DNA of 64,000 bases from Physcomitrium patens. Its lineage: Eukaryota > Streptophyta > Bryopsida > Funariales > Funariaceae. The position numbers and the translations under genes were made by a program. The stretch spans positions 7,988,701-8,052,700 of the forward strand of contig NC_037261.1 of NCBI RefSeq assembly GCF_000002425.4, in the 5' to 3' direction. Below the pieces are notes generated by a model. That model saw nothing but the letters and a program-made list of their open reading frames with translations, had not been told where the DNA came from and did not search any database. Every line of letters begins with the position of its first letter. Position 1 is the stretch's first letter. Below, piece by piece: positions 3,911-41,600 of the stretch.

Positions 3911-5611
3911 GCTATAATAGGGACCATGCAATTGAAATCTTATGTAACTCCTAATAAAGGTCATATTTTTTATTTAGATACCTTACCTTGTTTTACAATT
4001 AAAATTTATTAAGGACAAAAAAATCACAAAGTCTTAGCTTTATTAGATTCAAGAGCCTCAACTTGATTTATAGATGAAGATTTTATCCAAAAATAAGAGA
4101 TATCATTAATAAAATAAAATAAAATAAATAAAAAAATAAAAAAACTAAACTTGTACATGTACAAGTTATAGATGGTCATTTGCTATCTTTTGGAGATATT
4201 ATACATGAGATATAGCAATTAAATATTATAATAATAAAATAACATTTAACATAATAAGATCTCCATCTAATCCAATTATTTTAGAATTATCTTAGTTAAA
4301 AAACTATAATCCTCAAAATAGATTGGAGTTCTGGTAATTTCAATTTTTTTTATAGTTTAATCTAAAATTCCATTAATCAAGTAAAAATACATAAGTCTAA
4401 TACATCCAAATCTATACTAATAGGTACAAGTGCTTTTATATATGCCACCAAAGAAAAGTTACCTTTTGCTTTATATGCCACGTCCATTTTTGATGAAAAG
4501 AAGACATCAAGTTGTATTCTTAATTAGTATGAAGATTTCTAAGATAATTTTGAAAAAAAATGCAGATATTCTTTTAAAGCATCGACCTTATGATTTTTTC
4601 ATTGATCTTCATGAAGGAGCTCAACAATAATTTGGACCAATTTATAGCCTATCAAAAAACAAGTTGTTTACACTCAAAGAATATATTGATAAGAAATTGG
4701 CTATGAATTTTGTATGACAATATAAATCTCCAATTGGGGCTCCTATCTTATTTGTAAAGAAAAAATATGGATCTTTGTAGATGTGTTTGGATTATTGAAA
4801 ACTCAACAAGATTACTATCAAGAATATGTATCTTCTATCTTTAATTTCAAGAATTTTTGATAAATTAAATTAAACAAAGATCTATACAAAAATAGATCTA
4901 CAAGAAACATATAATTAGATACACATTAAAGAAGGAATTGAATGAAAAATTGTATTTTGAACTAAGTATAGATATTTTGAATATCAAATTCATGTTTGTT
5001 GTCTGTTACAAAAACTTAGAGATATAAGATTATATACAAAGTTAAAAAAGTGTGTATTCCACATTACTCAAGTTGATTTCCTAGGATATATCATATCTAA
5101 TGAAGGGCTTATGATGGATCCAAAGAAGATCCACACTATTATAGATTACAAGATTCTAAGAATAATAAAGGATGTACAATGCTTTCTAGGCTTTGTCAAT
5201 TACTATCGAATCTTCATCAAGAATTTTTCTCAAGTTGCAACTCTACTTACATGTTTGATTTTTTAAAATATACTTGAGTAGAATAGAGAAGCCAAAGTAT
5301 CATTTGATGTTTTAAAAAAGAGTTTATTTTTGCACCAATCTTATATTGTATTGACTTCTCAAAGGTATTTTTCATAGAAGCAGATACATTAGACTTTGCC
5401 CTAGATGCAATATTATCACAAATGGGAGCAGATGACAAATTCCATTTAATAGCTTTTTATTCTAAAAACTTTTTAATAGTCGAGATTGATTATGAGTTCC
5501 ATAAAAAAGAACTCTATGTAATTATACATTCATTTCAAGAATAGTATCATTATTTAGAAGGTACTTTGAATCTAATTATTTTATATACAAATTATAAGAA
5601 TCTTAAGTATT
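3911..5611 (+). pseudogene. Decayed protease-RT-RNase H part of A1 pol
   Basis: Protease region near 4020-4300 with the active-site triplet read as D-S-R-A (Arg codon at the usual Gly). The RT region runs 4560-5250, and RNase H runs to the equivalent of the TDHKNL motif. About 250 nt of the RT segment including the YLDD motif is missing between about 4990 and 5000. The sequence stops at the GTATT duplication before the young element and resumes at 11950. Confidence 0.75.
5607..5611. repeat. Target-site duplication GTATT, left copy
   Basis: Identical to 11945-11949. It lies in the sequence coding for the RNase H tail of A1 (equivalent to the intact copy near 9178). Confidence 0.95.
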
Positions 5612-5691
5612 TGTCACGGACATACATATAATTACCTATATGAATAGATAAAAGTATGTAAAAGTAGGTTAATTGTGTAATATCTTCTAGA

Positions 5692-5710
5692 GAAGCTTCT
5701 TAGAAGCTTC
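5692..5710 (+). promoter_or_regulatory. Tandem GAAGCTTC, heat-shock-element-like
   Basis: Two copies of gaagcttc separated by 3 bp. Each is a perfect GAAnnTTC half of a heat-shock element; the ideal spacing would be 2 bp, so this is a gapped element. It lies about 225 bp before the TATA box and is recognisable in decayed family-A LTRs. Confidence 0.4.
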
Positions 5711-5933
5711 ATCGACGCTGCTTTGACTTTATAGGAGTCTATAGTTGACTTTTAGGTTAGAAACTTGGTCAACAAGCTAGCCATGTGCCACGCATGTTGG
5801 AAGCTTAAAGAACAAGCTAACTACGTGGTCCATCCATAGAAAACTTGCCTTGCAAGCAAAGGCATGTGGCCTAGAAAGTCAACATATATTGGAGGTCTTA
5901 TAGAACATCGCCACGTGGCTTCTAGTTAGATAG

Positions 5934-5945
5934 TATATATAGAGG
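5934..5945 (+). promoter_or_regulatory. TATA box of the 5' LTR
   Basis: tatatatagagg, 31 bp upstream of the predicted start at 5965. It is conserved in the other family-A LTRs in the window (for example agtatatatggagg near 25830) and in family B at the same distance. Confidence 0.8.
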
Positions 5946-5971
5946 CAAGAGTGAAGCCCTCTTCACTCTTG
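5946..5971 (+). promoter_or_regulatory. Perfect 11-bp palindrome across the U3/R boundary
   Basis: Arms caagagtgaag and cttcactcttg with a 4-base loop. The predicted transcript start (5965) falls 4 bases into the right arm. Only RNA from the 3' LTR would contain both arms. Confidence 0.8.
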
Positions 5972-5975
5972 TCAA
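5965..5975 (+). promoter_or_regulatory. Predicted self-primer: transcript 5' end complementary to the primer site
   Basis: ACTCTTGTCAA is exactly complementary to TTGACAAGAGT at 6144-6154. It starts 31 bp after the start of the TATA box, where plant transcription normally begins. In Tf1 and sushi-like elements the first 11 bases of the mRNA pair with the primer site and are cut to prime reverse transcription. The start site itself is predicted, not measured. Confidence 0.75.
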
Positions 5976-6143
5976 CTCCTTTCTTGCTTCTAGTCTAGTT
6001 TCAAGGGTCTCTAGTTTTCTTGTATTTTGGCAATAGCCATTCCAGTTTCTTTCTTAATATACATATTTCTATTTTGTCCTATTTCTTTTTGAGAAAAGTC
6101 TCACTTACTCTTTAGCTTTCATCGAGTTCTTGTCCCTGACAGA

Positions 6144-6154
6144 TTGACAAGAGT
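6144..6154 (+). other. Self-primer binding site
   Basis: TTGACAAGAGT begins 2 nt after the LTR end. Pairing with 5965-5975 is 11 of 11 bases and does not extend on either side. The same 2-nt spacing occurs in family B with a different but again matching 11-mer (28359-28369). Confidence 0.8.
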
Positions 6155-6353
6155 ACACTTACAATATCAGAGCTTTGTCTTTTCTTGATTAAGAGTGGAT
6201 TACCCCTTTTTCTTGATAAGACATAAGCGCATTAGAAGTTGCGGATTACCCTCTTTTAAACTGATATTGTTCTTAGTATTTTCTTTGTTATCAATTCCTC
6301 TCTTCTATTTGTTTTGAGCGTTGTTAGACATCTTCTCTTTTCTAAGTGCTACT

Positions 6354-7361
6354 ATGGCAGAGCTTGTTGAAATGAAGAGTGCAATGGCACAGATGCAAGA
6401 ACAATTGAGGGAGTTAATGCTTGCGATGCATCAACTCAATTTACCACCACAAGGAGCAACAAGAATGGTAGGAAGTGAAGATATAGAGATGATTGGGGCT
6501 GCTTCAACATCTGCACCAAACCATGTCCCTTCTCCCAGAATGGAACACCCTTCGAGTGTTAGAGAATCGAGAGTTGCCTTGCCCGAGAAGTTTGATGGTA
6601 CCAGATCCAAGTTTCGAGGATTCATCAATCAGGTCCAACTAGTGATTGAACTTCAATCCCAGAGCTATCCAACTCCAGGGTCACAAGTAAGATTCATTGG
6701 TACACTTCTTTCAGGTTCAGCATTGTCATGGTTTTCATCTTTTCTTGAACGACGAGATCCAATATTGGATAATCTGGAGGCTTTTTTGGCGGAGTTTCGA
6801 TCCATGTTTGGAGAACATGATGCAATTCGTGTTGCAACCAACAAGATCCGTATTTTGCGACAAGGCGATCGATCAGTAACATTATATGCTTCGCAATTTC
6901 GACAACTTGCAACTGATATCAAGTGGGATGATGCCGCACTTGTGAGTCAATTTCTCTACGGATTACAATATGAGGTAAAGAAATTGATGCTTAATTTACC
7001 TGATCCTCAAACATTGAGTCAAGCAATTGACTTTGCTGTGAAGTGCGACAATCGACTTTTTGAATTTCGATCCGAGAGTCGCACAAGTAGGCCTCAACGT
7101 TACTACAATTCAATGGCAACACCGACGTCTCCTCAACACATACCTTCGGAAGTAGAGGATATGCAAATTGATGCGGTACGTTTCAAACCTCTTACTGAGC
7201 AAGAAAAGTCTCGTCGTCGACAAGAAGGATTGTGCTTATATTGTGGAGAACTTAAGCACACTGCTCAACATTGTCCAAAGAAGCGACGTAACTACAAAAT
7301 GAGGAGTACGGCTGTCAAAGAAGACAGTATGTCAGAAAACGAGTACGTCCAGCTACAATAG
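6354..7361 (+). CDS. gag: Gag polyprotein of the young element
   Basis: 335 codons from the ATG in actatggcag. A slightly longer open frame starts at 6321, but 6354 is preferred because the decayed copies (3164, 14858) begin at the equivalent MA-LVEMKSA position. The product would form the virus-like particle and package element RNA. It has a helical N-terminus rich in M, Q and E, a Ty3/gypsy capsid region (about residues 70-235), a linker and a CCHC zinc knuckle CLYCGELKHTAQHC (C-x2-C-x4-H-x4-C) near residues 299-312, followed by a basic tail. It ends at TAG 7359-7361. The pol frame overlaps it in -1 from 7292. Confidence 0.92.
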   Translation: MAELVEMKSAMAQMQEQLRELMLAMHQLNLPPQGATRMVGSEDIEMIGAASTSAPNHVPSPRMEHPSSVRESRVALPEKFDGTRSKFRGFINQVQLVIELQSQSYPTPGSQVRFIGTLLSGSALSWFSSFLERRDPILDNLEAFLAEFRSMFGEHDAIRVATNKIRILRQGDRSVTLYASQFRQLATDIKWDDAALVSQFLYGLQYEVKKLMLNLPDPQTLSQAIDFAVKCDNRLFEFRSESRTSRPQRYYNSMATPTSPQHIPSEVEDMQIDAVRFKPLTEQEKSRRRQEGLCLYCGELKHTAQHCPKKRRNYKMRSTAVKEDSMSENEYVQLQ

Positions 7362-10300
7362 GGACCGTGCGGCTGGAATCTTGTACAACTTCTAATAAAG
7401 GTCCTATCCTCTCCTCAAAACCATCTCCTTGTTTTATAATAGATGTGCGTTTAGGACCTAATAATTACAAAGCCTCTGCCTTGGTAGATTCATGAGCCTC
7501 ATCTTGTTTTTTAGATGAAGAATTTGCTAGATGTCATAGAATATCATTAATACAAAAAACTAAACCTGTACACGTAGAAGTCATAGATGGTCGTCCGTTG
7601 TCTTCTGGAGATGTAACTCACGAAACACTTCCTGTAGATGTAGTAATAAATGGTCATAGTAGTTGCGTAATTTTTAATATAATTAGATCTCCCTCTAATC
7701 CAGTAATTTTAGGCTTATCATGGTTAGAAAAGTATAATCCTCGAATAGATTGGATTTCTCGTAAACTTGATTTTCCTCAGAGCATTAGTAACAGTTCTAT
7801 TAACCAAGTAAAAAACCATGAGTCTAGTATAGTAAAACTCGCACCTATAGGTGCAAAAGCATTTATACACACAGCAAAAGAAAGATCAACTTTTGCTATT
7901 TATGCTGCACCTATTTCTGAAAGCGTAAAGACTTCAAGTGGCATTCCAAGTCAATATCAGGATTATCAAGACGTTTTTGAGAAAAAGAATGCAGATATTC
8001 TTCCTGAGCATCGCCCATACGATTGTTCAATCGATCTCAAGGAAGGAACTCAGCCACCATTTGGACCAATTTACAGTTTATCGCAAGATGAGTTGGCTGA
8101 ACTCAAGACATATATTGACGAGAATTTAGCGAAGAATTTCATACGCCATTCAAAATCTCCAGCAGGAGCTCCAATTTTATTCGTAAAGAAAAAAGATGGA
8201 TCTTTACGAATGTGTGTTGACTATCGAGGACTCAACAAGATCACAATCAAGAACAGGTATCCATTACCTTTGATATCAGGACTCCTTGACCAGTTAAATC
8301 AAGCTAAAATCTATACAAAAATGGATCTAAGAGGAGCATATAATCTAGTACGGATCAAAGAAGGAGATGAATGGAAGACTGCGTTTCGAACCAGGTACGG
8401 GCATTTTGAATATAATGTCATGCCTTTTGGACTCACGAATGCACCAGCTGCTTTTCAACATCTCATGAATGATGTATTTTGTGAATTCTTAGACAATTTT
8501 GTCGTCTGCTACCTAGACGATATCTTGATTTATTCTAAGAATGTTGAAGAACATGAAATACATGTTCGTCAAGTATTACAAAAACTCAGAGATGCAGGAT
8601 TGTATGCCAAGATGGAAAAGTGTGTATTTCACACTACTCAAGTTGACTTTTTAGGATACATCATTTCAAATGATGGTCTTATGATGGATTCTAAGAAAGT
8701 CCAAACAATCATGGATTGGAAGATTCCAAAGACTGTAAGAGATGTCCAATGTTTCTTGGGATTTGCCAATTACTATCGGATCTTCATCAAAGACTTCTCA
8801 CGAGTTGCAGCTCCACTTACACGCTTGACTAGTAAAGATAAATTCCAATGGAATCAAGAAGCGGAAGCAGCATTTGAAGCCTTGAAGACATCGTTTGTCT
8901 CTGCACCAGTCTTATATCGTGTTGATTTTTCCAAGGCATTTTTTATGGAAACAGACGCATCGGATTTTGCCTTGGGTGCAGTTTCATCACAAATGGGATC
9001 AGATGACAAACTTCATCCGATAGCTTTTCATTCAAGAAAATTCTCAGCAGCCGAGATCAATTATGAGATCCACGATAAAGAACTTCTTGCAATCGTGGAT
9101 TCTTTTCAAGAATGGCGTCATTATCTAGAAGGTGCTTCTAGTCCAGTCACTGTGTATACAGATCACAAGAACCTCGAGTATTTCATGTCAGCACGCGTGT
9201 TGAATCGTCGTCAAGCTCGTTGGAGTATGTCTTTGTCAAGATTCGACTTCATTATCACTTATCGGCCAGGAAAACAACAAGGTTTGTCCGATGCCCTGTC
9301 TAGACGTTCTTATTTTGTACCAAAAGAAGGAGATGCAGCTTTTGAGCAACAAAGAACGGTCCTCTTGAAACCGGAGCAATTTCATCTCCGAGCAGTGAAA
9401 TCAACATTGACTGTTGATTCAACTTTTCTCAAGCAAATCCAGTCCAGTATGTCCTCAGACCCTCTTGTTCATGATATCGAGAATAATTCTTCCAAGTCTC
9501 ATGATTCTTCTGAGTTCGAGTTCAAGAATAATCTATTATATTTTGAAGGACGCCTATATGTTCCAGAAGGAAAAGCACGTTTGCGTGTTCTTCAAGCACG
9601 TCATGACTTTCCAGCAGCAGGTCACTTTGGATATAATAAGACTCTAGAACTCATATCAAGAGATTTTTGGTGGCCACAAATGTGGAAATCAGTCAAAGAC
9701 TTTGTACAATCATGTGATATTTGTTCAAGATCAAAAATTCCTCGACATCGACCTTATGGACTTCTTCAGCCATTACCTATACCAGAACAACCATGGTCTT
9801 CTGTTTCTATGGATTTCATCACAGATCTTCCAAACTCAAGATCTTATGATTCTATATTTGTGATAGTAGATCGTTTCACCAAGATGGCACATTTTATGCC
9901 ATGTACAAAATCTATCACAGGTGAAGAAACAGCTAAGCTTTTCATTGATAATATCTATCGCTATTATGGATTACCTAAAGATATCATATCGGATAGGGGA
10001 ACTCAATTTGTGTCGAGATTCTGGAGGACTCTTTTTAAGATTTTAAAAGTGGACATAAAGCTATCTTCAGCTTTCCATCCTCAAACTGATGGACAAACAG
10101 AGCGCGTAAACCAAGTCTTGGAACAGTATTTAAGGTGTACCATCAACTACCAACAAGATGATTGGACAAACCTTCTGCCATTGGCAGAGTTTGCTTATAA
10201 TAATACGGTACATTCCTCCACGCAACAAACACCTTTCTTTGCCAATTATGGCTATCATCCACGACTTGATACTTTTGATTTTTCAAAAGTTGATAATCCT

Positions 10301-10855
10301 GCAGCAGAAGATATGGCAAATCGGTTGTCAGAGTTACATGCAATAATGAAGGCGCAGTTGAAGAAAGCTCAAGAACGACAAAAGATAAATGCAGATGTAT
10401 ATCGTAAAGAGCAACCACAACTCAACGTGGGTGATAAGGTATGGCTACTTCGTCGCAATATCAAGACCACTCGACCTTGTGACAAATTGGACTATCGTAG
10501 GCTTGGCCCCTTTTCTGTTTCTGAACAGATCAACCCAGTTGCATATCGGTTACATCTACCGGAGTCAATGAAGATCCATCCTGTATTCCACATGTCTCTT
10601 CTTGAACCATATAAGACAGTGGATATACAAGGAAGAAGACAAATGCCACCGCCTCCTATAGAAGTAGATAATAATGAAGAATTTGAGGTGGAAGAGATAT
10701 TAGACTCAAGGCGGCGCCGAAATAAGCTGGAATATCTTGTTCATTGGTGCGGATATGATATTAGTGAGCGCACATGGGAGCCATCCAGGAATCTAGCAAA
10801 TGCATCAGCTAAAGTCAAAGTTTTTCATCAACGACATCTATCAAAACCAAGATGA
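7292..10855 (+). CDS. pol: Pol polyprotein (protease-RT-RNase H-integrase-chromodomain), one in-frame stop
   Basis: Lies in the -1 frame relative to gag; the frame opens at 7292, so a 70-nt overlap allows -1 frameshifting. A TGA at 7493-7495 replaces the glycine codon of the protease D-S-G motif; after it the frame is open to TGA 10853-10855 (1085 codons from the ATG at 7598). Visible landmarks: RT YLDD (8510-8521); RNase H TDAS with its Asp at 8954; integrase zinc-binding HHCC (about 9599-9726); integrase D at 9812, D at 9992 and E at 10100 (35 residues between the last two, DD35E); chromodomain at about 10681-10845 (VEEILDSR, YLVHWCGY, TWEP). It should supply replication and integration functions. 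Autonomy is doubtful because of the protease stop. Confidence 0.93.
7493..7495 (+). other. In-frame TGA at the protease catalytic glycine
   Basis: The frame reads ALVDS-stop-ASSCFLDEEF. Aspartic proteases of this class have D-[ST]-G. Three of the four other copies here read AGA (Arg) at this codon (4050, 15998 and 29810 regions), and A5 (27470 region) reads TGA. No copy in the window keeps glycine. Confidence 0.85.
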
Positions 10856-11414: not shown

Positions 11415-11944
11415 TGTCACGGACATACATATAATTACCTATATGAATAGATAAAAGTATGTAAAAGTAGGTTAATTGTGTAATATCTTCTAGAGAAGCT
11501 TCTTAGAAGCTTCATCGACGCTGCTTTGACTTTATAGGAGTCTATAGTTGACTTTTAGGTTAGAAACTTGGTCAACAAGTTAGCCATGTGCCACGCATGT
11601 TGGAAGCTTAAAGAACAAGCTAACTACGTGGTCCATCCATAGAAAACTTGCCTTGCAAGCAAAGGCATGTGGCCTAGAAAGTCAACATATATTGGAGGTC
11701 TTATAGAACATCGCCACGTGGCTTCTAGTTAGATAGTATATATAGAGGCAAGAGTGAAGCCCTCTTCACTCTTGTCAACTCCTTTCTTGCTTCTAGTCTA
11801 GTTTCAAGGGTCTCTAGTTTTCTTGTATTTTGGCAATAGCCATTCCAGTTTCTTTCTTAATATACATATTTCTATTTTGTCCTATTTCTTTTTGAGAAAA
11901 GTCTCACTTACTCTTTAGCTTTCATCGAGTTCTTGTCCCTGACA
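11415..11944 (+). repeat. 3' LTR of the young element
   Basis: 530 bp, one difference from the 5' LTR. Followed by GTATT (11945-11949), the right target duplication. Confidence 0.97.
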
Positions 11945-13613
11945 GTATTTCATATCTTCATGTATTTTAAATTAGAACATGTCTTTATCAAGATTAGATT
12001 TCAAGTTCACTTATCAACTTAGAAAAATAAGAAGATTTGTCAAATGCTCTTTCTAAATGTTCTTATCTTATACCAAAATAAGAAGATGCATCTTTTGATC
12101 AATAAAGAATGATTTCTTTGAAGTCAGAGCATTTTCACCTTTGAGCAATAAAATCAACATTGACTTTTGATTCAACATTTGTCAAGCAAATTCACTCAAG
12201 TATGTCTTTTGATCTTCTTATCCATGATATCAAGAATAATTCTTATAACTCTCATGATACTTTCAAGTTTAAGTTTAAGAACAACCTACTATATTTTGAT
12301 GGAAGATTATATACTCTAAAAGGTAAGATACAATTACGTGTTCTTCAAACTTGTCATGACTTTTTAGCAGCCAAAAATTTTGGATACAACAAGATTTTAG
12401 AGCTAATATCAAGAGATTTTTCCTGGCTTCAAATGTGGAAGGAAGTAAAAAACTTTGTACAAACATGTGATATTTTTTCAAGTTCGAAGTTTCTTTAGCA
12501 TTGACCTTAAGAACTTCTGCAACCATTTCCTATTCCAGAACAATTATGGCCTTCTGTTTCTATAGATTTTATCATAAATCTACCAATTTTAGGTTCATAT
12601 GATTCTATATTCGTAGTAATAGATCATTTATTAAGATAAAAAAATTTTGTACTACGTACAAAATCTATCAAAAGTGAAGAAACGGCTAAGCTTTTTCTTA
12701 ATAATATCTATTGCTATTACGGAGAGCCTAAAGATATGATATTAGATAGGGGGACTCAATTTATATCAAGATTTTAGAATATCCTTTTTAAGATTATAAA
12801 GGTAGACATAAAGTTCTTTTTGCCTTTTCATCTTCAAATTAATGGACAAATAGAACAAGTAAATGAAATTTTAGAGTAGTACTTGAGGTATAACATCAAC
12901 TATCTTCAAGATGATTGGACAATTCTTTAACCATTGCCAAAGTTTACATATAAAAATTCAATATATTCTTCCACTTAATATTTTTTTCTTTTTTTTTTAT
13001 CAATTACGGTTATCATCTATGACTTGATACTTTTGACTTTTCAAAAGTTGATAATCCTATGGCAAAAGATTAAGCAAATCATTTGTCTAAACTACATGAA
13101 AGAATGAAGGCACAGTTAAAGGGAGCTCAAGAACAACAAAAGATTAATACGAATGCTTATCGCAAAAAACAATCAAAATTCAATGTAAGTAAAATGATAT
13201 AGTTACTTTGTCGTAATATCAAGACTACTCATCTTTGTGATAAGTTAATCTATCATAGGCTTGAACCTTTTTCTATTAGTGAATAAGTTAATTATATTGT
13301 TTTATGATCATATCTACTGAAATCTATGAAGATCTATCTTATATTTCATGTATCTCTTCTTAAGCTATATAAGATAATGAATATCTTGAAAAGAAGACAA
13401 ATGCCACCTCTTCCTATAGAAGTTAATAATAATCAAGATTTTGCTGTGGAAGAAGTCTTAAAGTTAAGGTGGTACTAAAATAGATTGAAATATCTTGACT
13501 TTTGGCATGGATATGATATTAGTGAAATTACATAGAAGCTAACAAAGAATCTTATAAATGTAGCAAAGAGAGTTGAGAATTTTTATCAACAACATACATC
13601 AAAATTAAGATAA
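11945..13613 (+). pseudogene. Decayed RNase H tail-integrase-chromodomain part of A1 pol
   Basis: Resumes A1 pol exactly where it broke at 5611. Integrase HHCC region about 12340-12480, DDE core about 12560-12860, chromodomain about 13440-13600, and a taa at 13611-13613 where the intact copy has tga. The longest remaining open part is 12160-12498. Glutamine codons have become stops, for example caacag read as caatag-type changes. Confidence 0.8.
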
Positions 13614-14093: not shown

Positions 14094-14651
14094 TATCATA
14101 GATATATACATGTTAGCCAATAATTACCTATATAAATAGATAAAAGTAGATATAATTAAATAAAAATCTATTAATTCTATAATATCTTCTAAAGAAGCTT
14201 CTTAAAAGCTTTATAGATGTTTTTTTGACTTTATAGGTATCCATTGTTGATTTTTAAGTTAAAAACTTGGTTAATAAGTTAACCATGTGCTATACATGTT
14301 GGTAGCTTAAAGAGCAAGTTAACTATATGGTACACATATAGAAAAACTTGTCTTGTAAGTCAAAGCATTTGTCTTATAAAGTCAACATATATTCAAGGTC
14401 TTATAGAACATCGCCACATAACTTCTAATTAGATAATATGTATAAAGACAAGAGTGAAGCTCTCTTCATTTTTGTCAATTCCTTTTTTTTATTTCTAGTC
14501 TAATTTCAAGAGTTTCAAGTTTTCTTGTCTTTTGGTAATAAGCCAATCCAGTTTCTTTTTAATATATGTACTTTCTTATTTCTATTTTGTTACTTTTTTT
14601 TATAAGGATTTCATTAGTTTATGCATCATCTTATAATTCATGTTTCTAATA
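14094..14651 (+). repeat. 5' LTR of A2
   Basis: Family-A LTR, about 558 bp, from tatcatagatata (decayed TGTCACGGACATA) to tttctaata (decayed TCCCTGACA). Two bases later it reads ttgataagagt, the self-primer binding site with one C-to-T change. Confidence 0.8.
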
Positions 14652-14857
14652 GATTGATAAGAGTATACTTATAATATCATAGCTTTGTCTTGTGTTGATT
14701 AAGAGTAGATTACTCCTTTCTCATGATAAGACATAAGCATATTAGAAGCTGTGGATTATCCTCTTCTAAATTGATATTATTCTTAGTATTTTCTTTGTCC
14801 TTAAGTCCTTTCTTTTACTTATCTTTAGTGATATTAGATATTTCTTTGAGTATTATT

Positions 14858-23913: not shown

Positions 23914-24452
23914 TATCATAGATATACATATGTACTTTATTAAATATCTATATGATTAAGTAGAAGTAAGCAAAAATAGATAAAAATAAGCTAATTTCAT
24001 AATACCTTCTAAAAGAACTTCCTAGAAACTTCATAGATGTTTTTTTTACTTAATATATATTTGTAATTGATTAGTAGGCCAGAAACTTGGTCAACAAGTT
24101 AACTATGTGTTGATAGCTTGTATAATAAGCTAACTATATAGTACACATATAGAAAACTTGCCTTACAAATTAAGATACATGTCTTGCAAAGTCAACATGT
24201 TTTGGAGGTCTTATAAGATATTGCCACATTGCTCCTAGTTAAGAGTATATATAAAAACAAGAGTGAAGCCTTCTTTACTCTTGTCAATGTTTTTTTAGCC
24301 CTTAGTCTTATTTCAAGACTTTCTAGTTTCTTTGTTTTTGGTAATAGCCATTTTAATTCAATAATATATAATTATTAAGTGGCTTTCTAGTTCTTTTCAG
24401 TATTACAAGAGTATATTAAGGATTTCTTTCTTCAAGATTCATGTCTTGGATA
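23914..24452 (+). repeat. 3' LTR of A3
   Basis: Family-A LTR of about 539 bp from tatcatagata to tcttggata. It keeps a TATA box (near 24246) and an intact ACTCTTGTCAA (near 24279). Confidence 0.8.
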
Positions 24453-25509: not shown

Positions 25510-26037
25510 TGTTATGGACATATATATTTACTTTAATATTTACCTATATGATTAATTAGAAATAGATAAAAATAAATTTATTTCATAATATTTTCTAGAG
25601 ATGCTTCTTAGAAGCGCCATAGACACTACTTTGACTTTATATGTATTTGTAGTTGATTAGTAGGCAAGAAACTTAGTGAATAAATTAATCACATATTACT
25701 GGCTTAAGAAACAAGCTAATTATATGGTGCACATAAAAAAACTTGTCTTATAAGTTAAAATATATATCTTGTAAAATCAACGCATTTCAAATGTCTTATA
25801 GGACATTGCTACATAGCTCTTAATTAAAAGTATATATGGAGGCAAGAGTGAAGTCTTTTATACTCTTGTCAATACTTTTTTAGTCTTTAGTCTTCTTTTA
25901 AGACTTTCTAGGCTTCTTGACTTTGAAATTAGTAATTTTAGTTTAATACTGTATTATCTTTGTATGATTTTTTAGTCTTTTTGAATGATATAGGAATGTA
26001 TTCAAGATTTCTTTCTTTGAGATTTGTGTCATTGATA
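25510..26037 (+). repeat. 5' LTR of A5
   Basis: 528 bp, tgttatggacatata... to ...cattgata. TATA box near 25830 and ACTCTTGTCAA near 25861 are retained. The primer site after the LTR (gtttaagaag) has decayed. Confidence 0.8.
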
Positions 26038-28198: not shown

Positions 28199-28241
28199 TA
28201 TATATAAGAGTCAAGGCTGAGAGGATCCTTAGTCTCGACAA
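28199..28241 (+). promoter_or_regulatory. TATA box and predicted self-primer of B
   Basis: TATATATAAG at 28199; 32 bp later AGTCTCGACAA (28231-28241). The 3' LTR has AGTCTTGACAA at 33878-33888, which is fully complementary to the site after the 5' LTR; the 5' LTR copy has one mismatch. Confidence 0.7.
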
Positions 28242-28358
28242 CTCACTTCTTATGGTTTAGCCAGGACCTTCTTGCCTAATATTTAAATTTTGTTTTAATG
28301 TCGAATTAATTCTATTTCTTGGTCTTGAATCCTTGTCTTGTATATGGTCCCTAACAAT

Positions 28359-28369
28359 TTGTCAAGACT
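28359..28369 (+). other. Self-primer binding site of B
   Basis: TTGTCAAGACT starts 2 nt after the LTR end at 28356, the same spacing as in family A. It is the reverse complement of AGTCTTGACAA in the B 3' LTR and differs from the family-A site at two positions that are both compensated in the LTR. Confidence 0.75.
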
Positions 28370-33562: not shown

Positions 33563-34003
33563 TGTCACTGATATACAACTAAAGAAGGTTTTAGAACGTT
33601 CTAAAAGATTTCAAAATATTTTAGAAGATATCAATAGATTCTAAGAAGGCTCTTAAAGGTTCTAGGAAGTTCTAAAAGATTTTGAAAGGTTCTAATAGAT
33701 TCTAAGAAAGTTCTAGAAGGTCAGAGGAGATTTTAGAAGGTTCTAAGAGGTGGTAGATGATTTAGGAAGGTGATGAAGAAGGATCTTAGGCTTACTTTGT
33801 TTTCAAGCCTCATAAAAACTTTTTAAGAAGTTTCTTGGGACTTAGTATATATAGGAGTCGAGGCTAAGGGGATCCTTAGTCTTGACAATTTATTTCTTGT
33901 CGTTTAGTTAGGACCTTGTTACATTATATCTAATTATTGTTTTAATATTAAGTTAACTCCATTCTTTAGTTTTGCATCCTTGTCTTGTATATAGTTCCTA
34001 ACA
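33563..34003 (+). repeat. 3' LTR of B
   Basis: 441 bp, tgtcactgatata to tcctaaca, less decayed at its 5' end than the 5' LTR. TATA box 33846-33855, palindrome ctaagg-ggat-ccttag at 33864-33879, predicted R start at 33878. Preceded by aaaagaggatgtga (polypurine tract) and followed by ATACT. Confidence 0.88.
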
Positions 34004-38690: not shown

Positions 38691-41600
38691 ATGAGTCGAT
38701 CTGTTGGAACCCCGAGAGCAGAGATGGAAGGCGGGTGGAGGGATAAAGCTAGGAGAAGCAAGGGAACTTTGGCGTGTATGGTGAATTCTGAGGTCAGTGC
38801 CGTACTAGCCGTGATGCGTCGTAATGCACGATGGGCGGGTCGGTATTCTGCAAGCGATGACCAGCTGGAGCATCCCCTCATCAGGTCCTTGAAGGGACTT
38901 CGACGACTCGTTTTTACTTGGCAGCAACCATGGCCATCTATCGACCCTTGCCTGTATCTCTCCCCCTTCTTAGATGTAATACGGTCAGATGAGACCGGTG
39001 CGCAGATTACGGGTGTGGCACTCTCTGCAGTGTACAAGATGGTTCAATTAGAAATCTTTGACGTACAGACCGCTAACGTGGACATTGCAATGCACAAAAT
39101 TGTGGATTCTGTGACGAGTTGTCGTTTTGAAGTTACCGATCCAGCGTCAGAGGAGGTCGTGTTAATGAAGATTTTGCAGGTATGTGTGTTTCTAAAGTCG
39201 AGTCATTTTTCCTTTTTGACCCAGAGAGGGTCGAGTTGATTTCTAAACACAGCCTTTACCACAACTTATGAGAACCTCGTGACGATTCGTAGTAGTTGGC
39301 CCTACATTATGATGTAATCCTCCGAAACATTCGATCTAATATGGATGAAGACACTTCCGCAATATACGTTTCTTAAATTCATGAAGATTTGTTCAGGAAT
39401 CCTTGAATTACTAGGCCCCAAATTTGGACAAAATGAGCTTGCTTTTTGGCTTGATATTATTGCACTTTACTTTGACATTGACATGAATTGTGGTGGTTTT
39501 ATTAGTGGTGGATAACCCGTTCTCAATGTTAGATTCTTTAATTCAGCTTTCTCCTTCATTATACTTCTCTGAATTCCCTATGTCTTCCCTAGGTTGCTAT
39601 CAACTAATGAGGTAAATCCTTTGATTTTTAGGTGCTGTTAGTCTCCTTAAAAAGTGGAGTTGGGGCAGTATTGAGTGATCGAGATGTTTGCAACATCGTG
39701 AACACCACTTTTCGAGTGGTTCATCAAGCTGGTAGCAAGGGGGAGCTCTTGCAGCGTACAGCTCGCTACACAATGCATGAGCTTGTCCGAGCTGTCTTCT
39801 CTCATCTACCTTCCCTGAAGCCAACATCTCTGGCGATCGAGATTGCTCCACACAACACAGAAAGCAGTTCCAGTGCTGGGAAGGATCTTGTATGTCTCTT
39901 TGTGTTGGATATTTTCTTTAAAAATCTGTTGCTATTATCCACACACAAATGAAACGAAACATTGTGCATGCAGATTTTGAATGCCTATATAGGCTGACAT
40001 GCTGATTAAGATTTTCGCACAGGCTTGGTAAAGGTTGACAATGTGGGCTGAAATACATCCTGCTAAAATGCCGGCTATTCTGAACTTTTGATGTATTCTG
40101 AACTCTTGATAATTTATAAGGTATTGAATGGTAATATATTACTTTCTGTGCCTCTTGTATACTGATCATTGAGGAGCTCACCTTTTTATTGCTTGGTTCT
40201 GGCAGAATAAGTCTGGATCAGAGGAGGCAAATGAGCTCAGTGGTCTCGTAAACACAAGTAGTATCTCTTCTGCTGATGGTAGCTCGGACTTAGCAGAAGC
40301 TGAACAACCTGTGCTTGTTAGTGATGAGCCCTCTGAAAAGGATGCCGTTGCACATCTCCTGAACGGAAGCGATGGAAGTCAAAATGCTGCCATTGAGACC
40401 GTTGGTAGTGCAGAGGATTCGATTGTTGCGGCTTACGGTGTACCATGCATGGTCGAAATTTTCAGTTTCTTATGTTCCCTTCTGAATATCGCGGACCTCC
40501 TAAGCCCTGGCCAGCTTGTATTGGCCAGTGACGAAGATTCGCCACAATTCGCCCTGATGCTGATTAATTCTGCACTTGAGCTGGGAGGTGATGCCTTCAA
40601 AAAGCATCCTAAACTATTAGATCTTATCCAAGATACGCTCTTCAGAAATCTGATGGTGATTGGACTTTCGCAGAACCCAATAGTTCTATCATTAGTATTT
40701 GGAATTGTTTTAAATCTGTACCATCATCTTCGGGGACTAGTCAAGCTTCAGTTGGAGGCTTTCTTTTCCTTTGTCTTGATCCGTCTTGCATCCGGCAAGC
40801 ACGGGGCCACATACCAGCAGCAAGAAGTTGCTCTGGAAGCGCTTGTTGACTTTTGCCGTCAGCCTACATTCATGCCTGAAATGTATGCAAATTTTGATTG
40901 TGATACCACACTAAGCAACACTTTTGAGGATCTAGGAAATCTGCTCTCTAAGAGTGCTTTTCCGGTCAACTGCCCGTTATCAGCTATGCATGTACTAGCA
41001 TTAGAAGGATTGCTTGCTGTGGTACGAAGTATGGCAGACAGAATTGATACTGGAATTCTAGTTCTTGCATCAAGTAATCTGGGAGCTGGCAACCAGGAAT
41101 ACATTCCATTTTGGACATTGAAGTGTGAACATTATGATGATCCTTCGAGCTGGGTTCAATTTGTAAAACATCAGAAGTACATCAAGTGCCGACTCATGAT
41201 AGGAGCTGATCACTTCAATCGGGACCCCAAGAAAGGTCTCGAGTTTCTACAAGGGATGCGGTTGCTTCCTTCCGAATTAGATCCTAAAAGCGTGGCTTGT
41301 TTTATCAGGTATTTAACCGGCGATGACTAAATAATCTTTTTAATATTGGCAGTGGTCAATGTCCATGCGCTTTCTTTTTATAGTTAGTCTTACATATATG
41401 GTTGTCGAGTTCTATGCATTTATGTTATTAGCAGCCTTGTAGCTTAAACTGGACATCGGAAGCATTTCTTTCCTGTTAGGTCGTGAACAATACTTCCGAT
41501 GTCCAATGTTTAAGCTAGAAATGTCGTGAACAGAACTTTTTTTTTTTTTTTTTTTTTCCCCTCTGTGGAGGAAAGACACCGTAAAAACGAATAGTTTTTT

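Follow-up and report, generated by a model that had tools for sequence, protein, structure and literature searches.

The 64,000-nucleotide stretch of Physcomitrium patens DNA analysed here (the window) contains a Ty3/gypsy chromovirus, element A, which very probably uses the first 11 nucleotides (nt) of its own mRNA as the primer of reverse transcription, judging from its sequence and from a predicted transcript start. In element A and most of the relatives compared with it, the same primer also forms part of a hairpin across the U3/R boundary, and this covarying hairpin may be the part of the system that is new: none was found in the titles or abstract beginnings on the topic, a coverage that leaves the founding Tf1 papers outside, and an earlier description is possible. 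Self-priming in plants, by contrast, is not the novelty that the earlier note suggested and was rejected as such, because the available text of Neumann et al. 2019 (PMC6317226) already predicts it for most Tcn1 elements (from mosses and club mosses). The same text predicts it also for the TAR lineage (Houba, Osr-1), which resembles element A as a plant case of predicted self-priming and differs from it in belonging to the Ty1/copia superfamily.

Element A is 6.3 kb long and lies on the + strand, as do all features below unless otherwise stated. Its 5' LTR (5612-6141, with TG...CA ends) and 3' LTR (11415-11944) are identical at 529 of 530 positions, and a 5-bp target duplication, GTATT, flanks the element (5607-5611 and 11945-11949); the insertion is recent. 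It was made into an older relative, since the sequence on either side, up to 5612 and then from 11979 onward, matches the interior of element A. A gag reading frame (6321-7361; 346 aa, first ATG at 6354; Retrotrans_gag, 1.5e-15), for which Pfam lists no zinc knuckle at E 0.001, is followed by a pol reading frame (7598-10855, open from 7496) that encodes reverse transcriptase (RT), RNase H, integrase, SH3_Tf2-1 and a chromodomain. Between the end of gag and the opening of the pol frame (7361-7496) there are stops in all three frames.

The predicted mRNA 5' end, and thus the putative self-primer, is formed by the first 11 nt of R, ACTCTTGTCAA at 5965-5975, and its exact reverse complement, TTGACAAGAGT, occupies the primer binding site (PBS) at 6144-6154. 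The LTR ends at 6141 and the PBS begins after a spacer of two nt (6142-6143), while the predicted start lies 31 nt downstream of the start of the TATA box (TATATATA, 5934-5941). Pairing ends sharply on both sides, with C/A and C/A mismatches flanking the 11 bp. On all of these points (the complementarity, its limits, the place of the PBS and the distance from the TATA box) the sequence confirms what the earlier note had claimed. The PBS sequence is found once on the + strand of the window (6144) and the primer sequence four times (5965, 11768, 24277 and 25862), each time within an LTR of the A kind. When a 530-nt LTR was compared with a site starting 0-10 nt past its end, 9 of 4000 simulations under a first-order Markov model gave a match of at least 11 nt, as did 20 of 1393 pseudo-LTR ends drawn, with overlap, from the AT-rich, repetitive window. 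Complementarity in a single copy is therefore a 0.2-1.4% event, only modestly unusual, so that relatives are needed; the observation is secure because of the TATA spacing and because the pairing recurs with different sequences in those relatives.

Relatives were obtained by an RT-alignment scan of genome contigs, which yielded 13 loci in bacterial and archaeal metagenome-assembled genomes (MAGs), all presumably eukaryotic contamination. An LTR-PBS junction could be read in eight of them (L001, L002, L004, L005, L007, L008, L012 and L013); the other five (L003, L006, L009, L010 and L011) have no readable 5' LTR-PBS region and stand outside the counts. Together with element A and element B, the latter representing a second family in the window (28199-28369), these eight make up a set of ten, in which L005 is represented by its 5' LTR; tables of nine elements leave out this LTR, which is counted as a miss among the ten, and three decayed copies in the window that retain both sites are kept apart. 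A single Trichormus MAG contributes seven of the eight relatives and another contributes L001 alone, giving three sources when the window is included. The LTR-PBS junction of L012 lies downstream of its RT stretch and so is part of another element of the same contig. The Trichormus MAG (a cyanobacterium by name) holds nine of the 13 loci (L002-L008, L012 and L013), all with Tcn1-like RT. Trichormus includes the symbiont of the fern Azolla, and if these contigs come from the fern, the Tcn1 clade extends past mosses and club mosses. The remaining loci, L001, L009, L010 and L011, lie in MAGs named Synechococcales, Erythrobacter, Methanosphaera and Deltaproteobacteria, on contigs with eukaryotic-type retrotransposons that are again presumably contamination. 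Viral contigs gave no relative, none of 5 and 369 pattern matches being confirmed.

A perfect primer:PBS match of 11-12 nt is present in eight of the ten elements, and five distinct primers are involved (ACTCTTGTCAA, AGTCTCGACAA, AAGGCGAACAA, AAGGTGAACAA and ACTCTTGATCAA), four of which occur with the hairpin. Past the 11-mer, Watson-Crick pairing goes on for a single pair in L001 only, while the match of L002 has 12 pairs. The distance from TATA to the start of R is 31-33 nt in all nine scored elements, and in all nine the spacer measures two nt after CA, taking as the LTR end the CA found in the loci. The pairing survives imperfectly elsewhere: element B (primer 28231-28241, PBS 28359-28369) retains 10 of 11 pairs, and the L005 5' LTR, in an alignment made by eye at a shared GAACAA end, 7 of 11; at TATA+31-33 the latter offers 6-7 pairs, none of these two nt after the LTR. 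The three decayed copies likewise fall short: copy A2 (PBS 14654-14664, primer at 14468) has 8 Watson-Crick and 3 G-U pairs, an LTR copy with its primer region at 2772-2782 and PBS at 2956-2966 has 8 and 1 (hairpin 10 of 13), and another on the - strand (primer region 2230-2240, PBS 2052-2062) has 9 and 1 (hairpin 12 of 13). Among the eight hairpin-bearing elements, two-sided changes are seen at 7 of the 11 primer:PBS positions, and when partners are swapped between the groups A, B/L001 and L004/L007/L008/L012/L013 the pairing drops from 10-11 to 4-9 of 11, with G-U counted.

We hypothesize that transcription of element A would start at A5965, and that the 5' end of the mRNA would fold back onto its PBS (6144-6154). 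If the analogy with Tf1 holds, RNase H would then separate nt 11 from nt 12, and the resulting 11-mer would be extended. The position of the cut in element A, after nt 11, is one that we infer from that analogy. In retroviruses, the new PBS is made during plus-strand synthesis by copying of the primer. If the same holds here, each cycle would rewrite the PBS from the primer, and such recopying, reasoned from retroviral replication, would account for both the covariation and the sharp limits at 11 nt; primer:PBS covariation then speaks for self-priming and not for separate selection. The covariation between families is in this respect added evidence for self-priming in elements of plant type, beyond the complementarity within any single element. 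The self-priming proposed in the earlier note is accordingly supported by the covariation, the near-constant TATA spacing, the 2-nt spacer, the absence of TGG and a phylogenetic position on the Tf1/Sushi side. Priming by a tRNA or a tRNA fragment, with a coincidental 11-nt match, could appeal to the chance level of the single-copy complementarity and to the fact that the tRNA test was TGG absence only, with internal tRNA fragments outside the comparison. We nevertheless regard it as very improbable, since TGG is absent within about 25 nt past the LTR in nine of nine scored elements, which extends to the relatives the earlier remark that no tRNA-type match starts next to the LTR, and since primer and PBS change together. 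ARAGORN predicted no tRNA in the window, and an Rfam scan of 5500-6700 found nothing.

In a tree of 126 RT regions (FastTree, midpoint root), element A groups with L001-L008 and with elements of Tremellales, basidiomycetes, frog and fish; L009, L011 and a Planoprotostelium element are more basal than this group, and elements of Tanacetum and Closterium together with L010 lie across the midpoint root. In this tree the seed-plant side consists of Tanacetum only, L012 and L013 stand outside, and no REXdb or Physcomitrella reference is included. A Tremellales protein is 63% identical to element A over the RT region. The chromodomain (Chromo, 1.8e-14) contains EEFEVE...HWCGY, which by eye places F, W and Y at the cage positions; the aromatic cage of Group I chromodomains is described, in the available part of the source, as Y24, W45 and Y48 (PMC3350952), so that element A differs in having F rather than Y as the first cage residue. 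By RT and chromodomain, element A fits the Tcn1 clade. The suggestion of the earlier note that a fungal-like Tcn1 origin would explain the self-primer agrees with this placement, and a moss host is plausible; a GNOM-like gene in the window makes a land-plant host probable.

Several known systems bear comparison, each as far as the accessible text of the cited source goes. The plant Tcn1 clade (PMC6317226) shares with element A an RT on the Tf1/Sushi side, a chromodomain that retains aromatic residues, predicted self-priming and the lack of a tRNA PBS, whereas a U3/R hairpin is not described in that text. SM-Tcn1 of Selaginella is a Tcn1-like plant element with a chromodomain and a 5-bp target duplication like that of element A, and its available description reports that no PBS was found (Novikova et al. 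2010, PMC2864245). Self-priming, as in element A, has been proposed for Tcn1 of Cryptococcus neoformans (PMC7175516), which differs from element A in its fungal host; the sequence comparison on this side is with the Tremellales protein named above. In the Tf1/Sushi group the first 11 nt of the mRNA pair with the PBS, and for Tf1 of fission yeast the 11-nt primer and its PBS are part of a pretzel-like RNA (PMC7175516, PMC10085805); the accessible text of these two sources makes no mention for Tf1 of a U3/R hairpin such as most of the elements studied here possess. Pairing of the LTR end with the part of R just past the primer was seen by eye in six of nine predicted folds (A, L002, L004, L007, L008 and L013), examples being GTTACGG/CCGTGAC, GTTGCGGG/CCCGTGAC and GTTGTGAAC/GTTCATGAC, and a third pretzel duplex was recognised in none of the nine.

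The hairpin, which goes beyond what the earlier note described, was recovered by an inverted-repeat scan of element A at 5944-5973. Its 13-bp stem ends two nt short of the primer end and is made of an arm in U3 (5944-5956), a 4-nt loop (5957-5960) and a right arm (5961-5973) comprising the final 4 nt of U3 and the initial 9 nt of R; all 13 pairs form, one of them G-U, at -19.7 kcal/mol. The copy in the 3' LTR (11747-11776) falls at the 3' end of the genomic RNA. Hairpins with arms of 12-13 bp and a 4-nt loop are present in eight of the ten elements, complete in A, L001, L004, L007, L012 and L013, with one mismatch in L008, and with two broken pairs (11 of 13) in B, whose U3 arm at 28210-28222 and right arm at 28227-28239 lie, with the primer, within 28210-28241. 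L002 shows the features of self-priming without a hairpin, which is thus not obligatory. The L005 5' LTR pairs at 4 of 12 positions, and the hairpin is complete in the other LTR of L005, at 5117. Nine LTR copies in the window keep 10-13 of the 13 pairs: these include the decayed copy A2 (hairpin and primer region 14447-14478; 13 of 13, 11 of them Watson-Crick), a B-type LTR copy (33857-33888; 13 of 13, inner stem AAGG/CCTT), and two diverged A-type LTRs (24256-24287 and 25841-25872; 12 of 13 each) in which the same 11-mer, ACTCTTGTCAA, is kept.

Shuffles of the segment around the hairpin reached the observed pairing in the same geometry in none of 3000 trials for seven of the eight elements (B, 3 of 3000). 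With any geometry overlapping the start the count was again zero of 3000 in six of eight, with 8 in L008 and 146 in B, so that B alone is unconvincing. A hairpin accompanies 14 of the 434 TATAWA sites in the window, 13 of these within eight LTR copies and the remaining one within a simple repeat, and 9 of the 62 in the 13 loci, eight of these in LTRs. Across the relatives the hairpin arm covaries with the primer. This raises the question of whether the left arm is a functionless by-product, in that template switching during reverse transcription corrects quasi-palindromes toward perfection: in all eight of these elements the left arm and the PBS agree at 8-9 of 9 positions, and copying would already couple PBS and primer. 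The stem, however, runs 3-4 bp into U3 past both primer and PBS, and changes there are compensated (GGT/ACC in L004, GGT/ATC with G-U in L007 and L012, GAT/ATC in L008 and L013; GAAG/CTTC in A and L001, AAGG/CCTT at 33857); with these G-U intermediates and the 4-nt loop, the by-product account strikes us as doubtful.

Predicted folding suggests what such a hairpin could do. In RNA that starts at R, the primer:PBS duplex has a probability of 0.92-0.96 in eight of nine elements (0.00 in B), and the whole duplex appears in eight of nine unconstrained predicted folds of R-U5 with the primer site, in agreement with the fold-back proposed for element A. Adding 30 nt of U3 lowers the probability from 0.92-0.95 to 0.00-0.28 in the seven elements that have both a hairpin and a perfect PBS (0.00 in A, L001, L004 and L013; 0.20-0.28 in L007, L008 and L012); in the hairpin-less L002 it is 0.98 with the same addition, and B gives 0.00 whether U3 is present or not. 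With the first 22 nt shuffled, the seven recover to a mean probability of 0.57-0.96. Element A recovers least, its shuffled left arm giving just 0.57, and in it the value drops to 0.35-0.51 with as little as 5 or 10 nt of U3. The hairpin is predicted to be stabler than the primer:PBS duplex in eight of eight elements, by a margin of only 0.4 kcal/mol in L008. The fold of 5965-6190 has no extra stability over shuffles (z -0.36), and the case therefore rests on specific pairing and not on total energy.

We propose that the U3 arm may guard the primer, acting across the U3/R boundary as a dedicated RNA switch through which only a correctly started 5' end would prime; based on the predicted folding of short RNAs, we give this proposal an even chance of being right. 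The repeat of R gives the genomic RNA another primer copy at the 3' end, and plus-strand strong-stop DNA would hold a primer copy beside its own PBS copy. The difficulty is peculiar to self-primed elements, as the repeated primer copy could pair with the PBS or snap back during strand transfer, and we know of no described answer to it. Only three molecules have U3 in front of R, namely the genomic RNA (at its 3' end), read-through RNA and strong-stop DNA, so that the arm would hide the primer just where priming must be avoided: in each of these the arm at 5944-5956 would lock it in the 13-bp hairpin, while the correctly started 5' end alone, being without U3, could pair with the PBS. A guard hairpin, if true, would be a concrete and testable answer, and would provide a sequence signature for finding self-primed elements.

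The inverted repeat might instead act in DNA, as a promoter element (a palindrome bound by a factor, or a positioner of the start site) with no RNA structure. Its fixed place past the TATA box in eight of ten elements fits this account, as does the fact that 13 of the 14 hairpin-bearing TATAWA sites among the 434 in the window belong to LTRs of this kind. A sequence-specific factor would be expected to keep the letters, whereas the arm sequences differ between families and what is kept is their complementarity; moreover, the lone non-Watson-Crick pair in A, L001, L007 and L012 is a G-U on the sense strand, as expected for a sense RNA. The A-A mismatch of L008 and the A-C of the decayed B weaken this last argument, and on balance we consider a promoter element unlikely.

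Positions 2000-36000 of the window, among which element A lies, are densely packed with nested Tcn1-like copies that differ in age. Compared with the young LTR of element A, five older LTR copies show C-to-T or G-to-A changes in 51 of 76, 25 of 40, 51 of 91, 52 of 95 and 60 of 111 substitutions, as expected from the decay of methylated DNA. Elsewhere in the window, a GNOM-like Sec7/HUS fragment is found at 40311-41330, and its named relatives are nearly all from land plants.
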